Assembly: GCF_000023845.1 (NCBI RefSeq) | Contig: NC_013170.1 | Location: forward strand, 434,001-498,000 | Direction: 5' to 3' | Length of the DNA: 64,000 nt | Source of the DNA: Cryptobacterium curtum DSM 15641 | GTDB lineage: Bacteria > Actinomycetota > Coriobacteriia > Coriobacteriales > Eggerthellaceae | Shown here: positions 13,794 through 17,276 of the stretch, in pieces | Layout of the letters: every line of letters begins with the position of its first letter | Position numbering within the stretch: the stretch's first letter is position 1 | Program-made: the position numbers and the translations under genes | The notes under the pieces: model-generated | Told to the model about the DNA's origin: nothing | What the model saw: the letters and a program-made list of their open reading frames with translations, nothing else | The model's database searches: none

Positions 13794-13819
13794 GATGGGG
13801 CGCCTGCGAGCGCCCCATC
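13794..13819 (+). terminator. Strong hairpin between rpoC and glmM
   Basis: GATGGGGCGC and GCGCCCCATC form a perfect 10-bp stem around a six-base loop, 20 bases after the rpoC stop. No T tract follows and glmM starts 35 bases later, so it may act as a U-less terminator, a partial attenuator or an mRNA-stabilising end for rpoBC. Confidence 0.55.
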
Positions 13820-13854
13820 TGCATACCATGCCAGGTAAGCGAGAAGGGACGACG

Positions 13855-15198
13855 ATGGGAAAGTTATTTGGAACCGATGGCGCACGCGGTGTAGCAAACA
13901 GCGAACTGACGTGTGAGGCAGCGTTTCGCCTCGGACAAGCAGCGGTTCACTTTCTCGGTAGCGTTATTACTGTAGGCAAAGACACGCGTCGCTCAGGCGA
14001 TATGCTGGAGTCGTCTCTTGCAGCTGGCATTATGTCGGCGGGCGGCACCGTGCAGGCACTGGGGGTTATTCCCACTCCGGCGGTAGCCCTTTTAGCGCGC
14101 ACTATGCAGGCTGATGGTGGTATTGTTATCAGTGCATCCCATAATCCACCGGAGTATAACGGCATTAAGTTTTTCGATGGGAATGGCTATAAGCTACCGG
14201 TGACGACCGAAGAAGCTATCGAAGAATACGTTTTCGCAGGTGGCCTTTCCGTTTCTGAACGTCCCACGGGTGCAGCAGTGGGGAATATTGTTTTGGTTAA
14301 CAATGCCCGTGAGGTATATATCAATCATGCGATTGAAGCCGTGCGCAGCCAGGGAATAGATCTGTCTCACTGGAAAATCGCACTCGATTGTGCTCACGGA
14401 GCGAGTTCAGTTACCTCGCCTGAGGCATTGCGGCGTCTGGGCGCTGAAGTTGTGGTGATTAATGACAATTACAATGGCTATGACATCAATGTTGATTGTG
14501 GTTCAACTCACCTGGAGCCACTCAAAGAATTGGTAGCCGCAACTGGTGCCGATATTGGTATTGCCCATGATGGTGACGCCGATCGCGTGCTCTTTGTTGA
14601 TGCGGCAGGCAATGAAATTGATGGCGACATGGTCGAAGCTGCCTGCGCACTCGATATGAAAGAGCAGGGGCGTCTCGCTGGCAACACGGTGGTGTCGACC
14701 GTTATGTGCAACCTTGGTTTTGTTCGCGCAATGGAAGCGCATGGCATTGCAGTTAAGCAGACTGCTGTGGGTGACCGTCATGTACTCGAATGCATGCGTG
14801 ATGCTGATTATCGTATTGGGGGAGAACAGAGCGGGCATACGATTTTTTTAGAATACAACTCTACAGGCGATGGTCTTATGACTGCGTGTCAGTTTCTGGT
14901 CTGTTGCGAACGGGCTGGCAAGACGCCTGCACAAGCCGCTGCAGTTATGACGCGCTACCCCCAAGAACTTATTAATGTTCGCGTGTCAAACAAAGATGCT
15001 ATTTCTTCCAATGAAGCCATTCGCGCTGCCATTACTTCGGCCGAACAAGAGATGGGCGATGCTGGGCGTGTACTCGTGCGTGCAAGTGGTACTGAGCCGC
15101 TGATTCGTGTCATGGTGGAAGCAGCAGATGAAGCCCAGGCGCGCTTGCATTGTGAAGCGATTGCCACGGTTGTGCAAAGCGAAATCGGTTGCGAATAA
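13855..15198 (+). CDS. glmM: Phosphoglucosamine mutase
   Basis: The 447-residue enzyme converts glucosamine-6-phosphate to glucosamine-1-phosphate, the step before GlmU in UDP-GlcNAc synthesis. Motifs are complete: LFGTDGARG at the start, the phosphoserine loop ISASHNPPEYNG (Ser95), the metal-binding DGDADR, GGEQSGH for sugar binding, and RASGTEPLIRVM for phosphate binding. The length is normal for GlmM. ATG 13855 is preceded by AGAAGGGA. It follows rpoC across a strong hairpin, so it may be read partly from the rpoBC transcript. glmU lies elsewhere in the window (28.5 kb). Confidence 0.97.
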   Translation: MGKLFGTDGARGVANSELTCEAAFRLGQAAVHFLGSVITVGKDTRRSGDMLESSLAAGIMSAGGTVQALGVIPTPAVALLARTMQADGGIVISASHNPPEYNGIKFFDGNGYKLPVTTEEAIEEYVFAGGLSVSERPTGAAVGNIVLVNNAREVYINHAIEAVRSQGIDLSHWKIALDCAHGASSVTSPEALRRLGAEVVVINDNYNGYDINVDCGSTHLEPLKELVAATGADIGIAHDGDADRVLFVDAAGNEIDGDMVEAACALDMKEQGRLAGNTVVSTVMCNLGFVRAMEAHGIAVKQTAVGDRHVLECMRDADYRIGGEQSGHTIFLEYNSTGDGLMTACQFLVCCERAGKTPAQAAAVMTRYPQELINVRVSNKDAISSNEAIRAAITSAEQEMGDAGRVLVRASGTEPLIRVMVEAADEAQARLHCEAIATVVQSEIGCE

Positions 15199-15315: not shown

Positions 15316-15326
15316 GGGGGGGGGGG
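15316..15326. repeat. Homopolymeric tract of 11 G upstream of the adhesin gene
   Basis: Eleven consecutive G residues lie about 127 bases before the adhesin start codon. They precede candidate promoter elements: TTGTAC (15336-15341) with TAAGCT (15359-15364) at 17-base spacing, or a TATATT at 15347. Tracts of this kind change length by slippage and can switch promoters. The 254-base gap has no other gene. Confidence 0.8.
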
Positions 15327-15382
15327 CGTCGTTTTTTGTACACGACTATATTTGCTGGTAAGCTAAATGTGGGTAAACAAAA

Positions 15383-15402
15383 GGGCAGCTGAGAGGCTGC
15401 CC
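15383..15402 (+). other. Hairpin in the likely 5' leader of the adhesin gene
   Basis: GGGCAGC and GCTGCCC form a 7-bp stem around a six-base loop about 50 bases before the adhesin ATG. No T tract follows. It could be a leader structure affecting stability or translation; no known riboswitch was recognised. Confidence 0.45.
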
Positions 15403-15452
15403 ACTGCGTATTTCACCCAAAAATGAGATACCAGGAGGGGGAAGGAAGGTCA

Positions 15453-17276
15453 ATGAAACGAAAACTCTCCTACCTCATGAGCGTACTGCTTGTTGCAGGG
15501 CTTATGATTCCCGCGGGGTCGCTCCAGGCGTTCGCGGACGATACGACTACTGAGTCGAGCACACCGGCTGTATCAGTCGACGCGGTAGCTCCTACATCAA
15601 CTGGTGTAGTGGATACGACAGCAGCGCCTGCTGCTGCAGATTCCACCGAGGCAACTGATGCCACTGCTACTATCAACAGCACAGATTCTGTAACTGAAGA
15701 AACCCCTACTGCTGACACGTCGTCAGCATCTTCAGCAACAGCCGATATGCAGGCTACTGTGAGTGAAGATGCGACCACGAATAGCCTTGATGTTGCAACG
15801 CCACTGGCTGTATCGAGTCTTGCGACAGATGTATCTGATGCTCTGTTGACCGCCGGCTTAACCCGTGCGGGTCCACTGCAGCGTCCTGGTGCTGGACAAG
15901 AAGTCTCTGTCAACCTGACAGGTTTCAAGTTCAAAAATATGGATCATAACGACACCACTGAAATCCGTGCCAATTACAACTTCTTTTTAAGTATGGATTG
16001 GGATGCTAGTGGTAAATCGATTCATGAGGGCGACTATTTCGATATCAAATTGCCCGATCAGATGAAATTCCCTGAGGGCAATTCCAACTTTGACATCACC
16101 GATAGCGACGGCAATGTTATTGCGCATGGCGAAATTCAACCTGGACCAGACAACAATGGTGGCAAGGTCCATGTTACTTTCACCAACTACGTGAACAACC
16201 GTTATGATATCAAGGGTAACATCCAGGTTAAAACGCGCTTCAATACTTCAAGGATTACCCCTAACGAGAATAATAACTTCACTATTGAGACCGGCGGCAA
16301 AACGAAGACAAGTACGGTTAAAGTGATTGACCCATGGAAGCTTGTTGACGAAACCGTTGGTAAGTGGGGCGAACAGGATGGCAGCGATCCAAATACCACG
16401 GTCTGGTATGTTCGTATCAACCACATGAAAGATAACCTGACTAATGTCGTGATAAGCGATCATCTCACCTCAGATCAAGGGCTCGATGGTATTCACTACA
16501 TAGCGGGTTCATTTGAATTGCAACATGTCACCATGGACGAGTTTGGGCATACGACATCGGTCATTTCACGAAATGATATCAACAGCTCCGTTCAGATTTC
16601 TGCCGATGGTACTTCTTTTACATACCCGATGGGCAACATCAATGGTGACCAGTACGTGCTGCGCTACAAGACCACGTACAAGCCCGGTATGAAGCTGTTG
16701 AATCACATTAAGCTTGTTTCAACTGAAAAGACCAAGGAAGCCAGTTCAAGCTATCATTACACCGGCTCAAACGGTAACGGTGAAGGCAGCCTGTTCAGTA
16801 AGATCAAAATCATTAAGGTTTCTGCATCTGACGAGACGGTAAAACTTGCCGGTGCTGTATTCACGATTACGAGCGTGTCAGATCCGACAAGGACCTACAG
16901 CTTGACAACCGATGAAAACGGCGAAGCAATTACGGACAGACTGGTAGCAGGTCAGTACACGATCAAAGAGGTTACTGCGCCTGAGGGATATCTCGTAAAC
17001 GATGAAACGTATACAGTAACCGTAACTTCGAATGCGGCCACGATTCAGACCGTGAAGGACGAACAGAAGCCTGAGGTTCCAGACAATCCCAATCCTGGTC
17101 CTAACCCAGAACCGTCACCGAACCCCGAACCTTCTCCTAGCCCGGAGCCTCCGACACCCGAGTCAAGTGTACTTCCGCTGACAGCCGATGGATTTATGCC
17201 ACTGGCCGGCATGCTTGGGTTTGCTGCTCTGGCTGGAGCGGGTCTTGCCGTGCGGGCTTGGCGTTGCAGCCGATAA
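15453..17276 (+). CDS. Sortase-anchored surface adhesin with Cna-B-type domain
   Basis: A 607-residue cell-wall protein. Residues 1-29 are a signal peptide (MKRKLSYLMSV ... LQAFADD). Residues 30-130 form a Ser/Thr/Ala-rich spacer. Residues 145-435 resemble the Ig-like adhesin modules of the Sdr/collagen-binding group (SIHEGDYFDIKLPDQM). Residues about 450-540 are one Cna-B/SpaA-like domain (LAGAVFTITS ... YTIKEVTAPEGY) whose Lys and Glu could form an isopeptide bond. A Pro-rich stalk of PNPEPSP repeats follows, then the sorting signal LPLTA-D-G at 574-580, a hydrophobic helix and the basic tail RAWRCSR. The motif differs from canonical LPxTG. ATG 15453 follows an AGGAGGGGGAAGG site. The ligand is unknown; an 11-G tract upstream suggests variable expression. 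Confidence 0.85.
   Translation: MKRKLSYLMSVLLVAGLMIPAGSLQAFADDTTTESSTPAVSVDAVAPTSTGVVDTTAAPAAADSTEATDATATINSTDSVTEETPTADTSSASSATADMQATVSEDATTNSLDVATPLAVSSLATDVSDALLTAGLTRAGPLQRPGAGQEVSVNLTGFKFKNMDHNDTTEIRANYNFFLSMDWDASGKSIHEGDYFDIKLPDQMKFPEGNSNFDITDSDGNVIAHGEIQPGPDNNGGKVHVTFTNYVNNRYDIKGNIQVKTRFNTSRITPNENNNFTIETGGKTKTSTVKVIDPWKLVDETVGKWGEQDGSDPNTTVWYVRINHMKDNLTNVVISDHLTSDQGLDGIHYIAGSFELQHVTMDEFGHTTSVISRNDINSSVQISADGTSFTYPMGNINGDQYVLRYKTTYKPGMKLLNHIKLVSTEKTKEASSSYHYTGSNGNGEGSLFSKIKIIKVSASDETVKLAGAVFTITSVSDPTRTYSLTTDENGEAITDRLVAGQYTIKEVTAPEGYLVNDETYTVTVTSNAATIQTVKDEQKPEVPDNPNPGPNPEPSPNPEPSPSPEPPTPESSVLPLTADGFMPLAGMLGFAALAGAGLAVRAWRCSR

Follow-up and report, generated by a model that had tools for sequence, protein, structure and literature searches.

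A run of eleven G upstream of a Cna-like adhesin gene of Cryptobacterium curtum, a probable slippage contingency locus and one of six long G/C tracts before surface genes

The stretch of DNA analysed here (the window; 64,000 nucleotides) comprises bases 434001-498000 of the single-contig genome (1,617,804 bp) of Cryptobacterium curtum DSM 15641, and its element of interest is a homopolymer of eleven G residues (G11; 15316-15326, plus strand, in window positions), a candidate slippage tract situated upstream of a gene for a Cna-like surface adhesin. We consider it quite likely that this tract is a contingency locus. The fuller reading, that slippage at the tract tunes transcription of the adhesin gene and that the tract is one of six such switches in the genome, is favoured with moderate confidence. 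The genome-wide pattern supports a set of six candidate contingency loci rather than an isolated tract, and C. curtum probably varies its surface coat by copying slips in these runs.

An initial annotation of the window had reported an eleven-G run about ten bases before a candidate -35 hexamer (TTGTAC) and about 127 bases before the adhesin gene. These statements were borne out by the sequence and by the run counts in the window and the genome: the hexamer (15336-15341) begins after nine intervening bases, and the ATG at 15453 is 126 nt from the tract. The tract exceeds the length from which runs are regarded as slip-prone (at least 8 G/C), and, as far as position alone is concerned, it stands where a contingency locus of the adhesin would be expected. 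It is the sole G/C run of at least 7 in the window, for which 0.035 runs of at least 11 G are expected with independent bases, and fewer still under the real run-length decay. The same annotation called it the only such tract noticed, which is correct for the window and an understatement for the genome, since five others lie elsewhere.

A pattern search of the genome (1.62 Mb) gave seven G/C runs of at least 8 (lengths 8, 9, 9, 9, 10, 11 and 11) and five of exactly 7; the lengths are thus bimodal, with five runs of 7, one of 8, and then three, one and two of 9, 10 and 11, respectively. A decay of about 0.2 per base (approximately 0.14-0.22 as measured in the stretches read) predicts about 0.25 runs of at least 9 genome-wide, and six were observed. 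All six are located 3-144 nt 5' of the start codon of a surface-protein gene or a pilus operon. Besides the window tract (genome positions throughout), a C9 at 38587 precedes the gene for a 1814-aa surface protein (C in the coding direction), a G9 at 101302 precedes a pilus operon that includes its own sortase, and a G10 at 428452 precedes the gene for an Sgo0707/SHIRT adhesin; a G11 at 1561983 is 48 nt 5' of the GTG of a second Cna-like adhesin, and a G9 at 1569526 is three bases 5' of the ATG of a Cna_B protein, directly at the Shine-Dalgarno/ATG region. By domain content, the targets comprise the Cna-like pair, the Cna_B protein, the Sgo0707/SHIRT adhesin, a List_Bact_rpt protein, and a GramPos_pilinBB/FctA pilus operon with sortase. 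The five 7-runs were found at uvrB-like, transketolase-like, amidohydrolase-like and ruvB-like genes (identities read from sequence), all of housekeeping type and with no surface gene among them, and the lone 8-run is at an unrelated intergenic site. The chance of six out of six at surface genes is about 1e-12 (13 anchored genes, 150 nt each), or 2e-6 in a generous version that admits 150 secreted genes; the calculations assume an intergenic share of 12% and round gene numbers. Note that the coverage of surface genes is incomplete, and tract-free ones exist (e.g., at 170638 and 1222286).

Relatives of the N-terminal half of the adhesin were present in 27 of the 396 Coriobacteriia genomes. Upstream of these homologs, we found G8 at 130 nt (two sister species), G10 at 118-121 nt, and G10 at 76 nt from the start; in genome G043, a G14 stands 99 nt before the start of a further surface protein, which was located via this tract and whose signal peptide (MKRKLCCLMSAVLALG) is closely similar. 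Two congeners have near-identical orthologous promoters with an indel within a purine run, G5 in one versus AGGGGAGGGG in the other. Across species and genera, the length therefore varies at a conserved place, with G5, AGGGGAGGGG, G8, G10, G11 and G14 at homologous adhesins. When the homolog loci were tested with the C. curtum genome itself left aside and with loci of undefined start omitted, five of the six tracts of at least 8 lay within 300 nt of the start (p = 4e-4). Other homologs or paralogs have the tract in the 5' coding region, either in frame (G11 at L173 in G043; G10 at L137 in G016) or out of frame (G9 at L171 in G185; G11 at L122 in G016; G10 at L181 in G295), and the coexistence of in-frame and out-of-frame states in related genes is what a slippage switch predicts. 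In G016, two related signal-peptide proteins (L122 and L137) share the position of the tract, but it is in frame in one and out of frame in the other. In G131 (L194) and G228 (L198), adhesin homologs that have no G tract are frameshifted close to the 5' end, in one case at an A run just past the ATG; decay, error or A-tract variation may account for these. A 60-base G run close to a contig end in G073 (L136, 5002) is probably a sequencing artefact.

By an automatic criterion, enrichment of tracts of at least 10 at signal-peptide genes was clear only in G043 (3/3) and C. curtum; it was weak in G003 (4/27 versus 1.1 expected) and G005 (2/14 versus 0.9), and the other family genomes showed none. 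A family-wide rule of tracts at surface genes was therefore dropped. In G003 (66% GC), the tracts are mainly in repeats or unrelated genes; at one locus of this genome (L156), two adjacent paralogous anchored proteins each have a G10 in signal-peptide codons (RGGGA).

Searches with the models of MutS_I (mismatch-binding domain) and NucS_C gave zero matches in the C. curtum genome, and control genomes were positive. All analysed Coriobacteriia have been reported to be without NucS and MutS-MutL (PMC5290159). Because neither MutS_I nor NucS was found, slips in a long G run should persist, and they probably do remain uncorrected in C. curtum. The proposal of the initial annotation that the tract is a phase-variation switch operated by slippage is thus strongly supported by comparison: by the six genome tracts at surface genes, by the homologs with varying lengths and with intragenic tracts in and out of frame, and by the lack of known mismatch repair.

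The best sigma-70-like pair near the tract is TTGTAC-17-TAAGCT on the plus strand (promoter-pair scoring; score 7.0, weak), in which the candidate -10 (15359-15364) follows TGG, as in an extended -10, and begins 32 nt past the tract end; its -35 is the hexamer already named by the initial annotation. At the pilus operon, TTCCCT-16-TATAGT has its -10 at the same 32-nt distance, and at the 38.6-kb tract, TTGGCA-18-TACAAT is 28 nt away; the best promoter-like pairs are thus 28-32 nt downstream of the tract in three of the four promoter-distance tracts. Alignment of these four gave no convincing shared promoter motif beyond the tract. On checking for a layout of the Helicobacter pylori sabA type, the weak TTGTAC-17-TAAGCT pair was found nine bases past the tract, and a strict scan found none. 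Placement of the tract in the promoter spacer, as in porA and opc, was considered and found no support in the predictions for the window: CGTCGT, with no resemblance to a -10 hexamer, follows the tract, and no spaced pair spans it. Our best guess is that the tract occupies the predicted -55 to -45 region, adjoining the -35. From there it could plausibly alter promoter strength, and action at the promoter level is somewhat better than an even prospect.

The tract, its genome-wide company, the recurrence of the arrangement among relatives, and the lack of MutS_I and NucS were seen directly; slippage in C. curtum, the location of the promoter and any influence on expression are what we infer. In the favoured reading, the replication polymerase would slip on G11 and, with no known mismatch repair, the slip would stay, so that tract length would differ between cells of one population. 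The tract would lie approximately 45-55 bp before the point at which transcription is predicted to start, beside the -35 and not between the boxes, and a change in its length would shift or rotate the upstream DNA (UP-like or activator contacts) relative to the core promoter. Adhesin transcription would then be tuned in steps by tract length, and six candidate switches (the pilus operon and five other surface proteins) would give a combinatorially variable surface.

The gene downstream of the tract (15453-17276, plus strand) encodes a 607-aa surface adhesin that combines a signal peptide with Big_8, Collagen_bind and SpaA domains and also has a Pro-rich stalk, LPLTA and a C-terminal hydrophobic anchor. 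The initial annotation had named it a sortase-anchored adhesin. Its nature as a surface protein was confirmed; sortase anchoring is likely rather than certain, the sorting signal being weak (LPLTA; 12.3 bits with the LPXTG_anchor model versus a cut-off of 15.9). A Shine-Dalgarno-rich stretch, AGGAGGGGGAAGGAAGG (15433-15449, plus strand), lies 5' of the ATG. The presumed leader is unusually stable (fold z = -3.7) and contains a stable predicted 7-bp hairpin, GGGCAGC-TGAGAG-GCTGCCC (15383-15402, plus strand); comparison of the leader with Rfam gave zero matches. Read on the minus strand, this hairpin resembles an intrinsic terminator. The upstream gene, glmM (phosphoglucosamine mutase-like; 13795-15198, plus strand), was identified by reading its protein sequence and from its place after rpoB-rpoC.

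Several observations weigh against the favoured reading. The TTGTAC-17-TAAGCT pair is weak, with under 9/12 matches, and is passed over by the strict promoter scan of the region. Scanning of the interval between glmM and the adhesin gene revealed no intrinsic terminator, so that read-through from glmM could bypass the adhesin promoter. About half of the adhesin homologs are without a tract, and in other, more GC-rich members of the family most G10 tracts are away from surface genes. A search for related loci and with exact flanks and a variable gap, in genomes and viral contigs, gave no second C. curtum copy of the locus that could show length variation. Among the six tracts, moreover, one is C in the coding direction, another falls within the leader, and a third adjoins the start codon; because of these differences, one promoter mechanism cannot serve all six, and two of them must act at the leader or start-codon level. 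What the six would have in common is slippage close to the 5' ends of surface genes, not one regulatory geometry.

These points bear differently on the alternatives. The tract may vary by slippage and yet act in the mRNA leader, through structure or translation, with transcription coming from upstream (rpoBC-glmM read-through or a start before the tract). The missing terminator after glmM and the unusually stable leader fold are in its favour, as are the two genome tracts that lie 48 nt 5' of a GTG and 3 nt 5' of an ATG, which can act only in the leader or in ribosome binding. However, the tracts at 38.6 kb and 101 kb, half of the four at promoter distance, stand behind divergent upstream genes, so that the promoter must be in those intergenic regions, and the promoter-like pairs recur at a similar distance downstream of the tract in three of the four; we regard action in the leader as unlikely for the window tract. 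The G run could also act as an invariant cis-element, for instance one bound by a regulator of surface genes, of which the sequence and not the variability matters. The fact that several surface genes of C. curtum have such a run at the same upstream distance agrees with this, but the position shifts among promoter, leader, start codon and coding sequence, one tract is C in the gene direction, the lengths in homologs span 5 to 14, and a binding site offers no sensible account of intragenic tracts that are out of frame; this explanation is decidedly improbable.

Lastly, the tract could be neutral or an artefact, either a homopolymer that grew by chance where repair is poor or a miscall of 454 sequencing, and leave expression unaffected. 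The type-strain genome was sequenced with 12.9x Sanger and 20x 454 coverage (PMC3035227), and exact lengths are possibly off by one in such a combined data set; in the GC-rich relatives, moreover, G10 tracts are common and for the most part of no note. The Sanger coverage of 12.9x speaks against a miscall, however, and neither chance growth nor error accords with six of six long tracts being at surface genes, with the shorter runs elsewhere, or with recurrence of the arrangement in other genera. We consider this the least probable of the explanations.

Slippage contingency loci are a known kind of system, to which the C. curtum tracts would add a case in Coriobacteriia with a clean genome-wide pattern. 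In Neisseria, G/C tracts in the promoter spacers of porA, opc and fetA bring about transcriptional phase variation of surface proteins. The window tract is likewise a G/C homopolymer at a surface-protein promoter, but it is predicted to lie upstream of the -35 rather than between the -35 and the -10; the relatives G131, G228 and G294 may be of the spacer type, according to predicted pairs with weak scores. The placement is closer to that of the T-tract in the H. pylori sabA promoter (PMC4081817), a homopolymer beside the -35 of an adhesin gene that works as a rheostat with graded output; the sabA tract consists of T and was proven by isogenic variants and a strain series, whereas that of C. 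curtum consists of G and is known from sequence alone. In Bifidobacterium breve, also an actinobacterial commensal, G11 and G10 tracts at genes for sortase-dependent pili slip, as measured by maximum depth sequencing (PMC9187656), and the same paper mentions further G tracts that lie in promoter spacers (PMC9187656). The B. breve tracts work by frameshift from within the first coding gene, unlike the window tract, which is 5' of the gene; among the Coriobacteriia relatives, the intragenic tracts (L173, L171, L122, L137 and L181) fit this frameshift mode. Gardnerella, another actinobacterium of a different class, has abundant tracts of at least 8, mostly upstream of open reading frames and with evidence of variation (PMC11287997), and these are not confined to surface genes. 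No open-access paper describing such loci in Coriobacteriia was found within a partial coverage of the literature.

More tentatively, and at somewhat less than even probability, Coriobacteriia, without known mismatch repair, may generally rely on G-tract slippage to vary their surface; six independent switches in 1.6 Mb of C. curtum would cover most of its large cell-wall adhesins and the pilus, and homologs in other genera would move the switch among promoter, leader and signal-peptide coding positions. A lineage without MutS and NucS would thereby be tied to contingency loci, a link that is simple and testable, and the tracts are easily genotyped, which makes the idea directly testable. Six tracts would allow up to 64 on/off combinations. 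If the reading is true, this periodontitis-linked oral organism and its relatives of gut and mouth would form mixed populations differing in the adhesins displayed; adhesion and immune recognition would be affected, and single reference genomes may record some of these genes in the off state.
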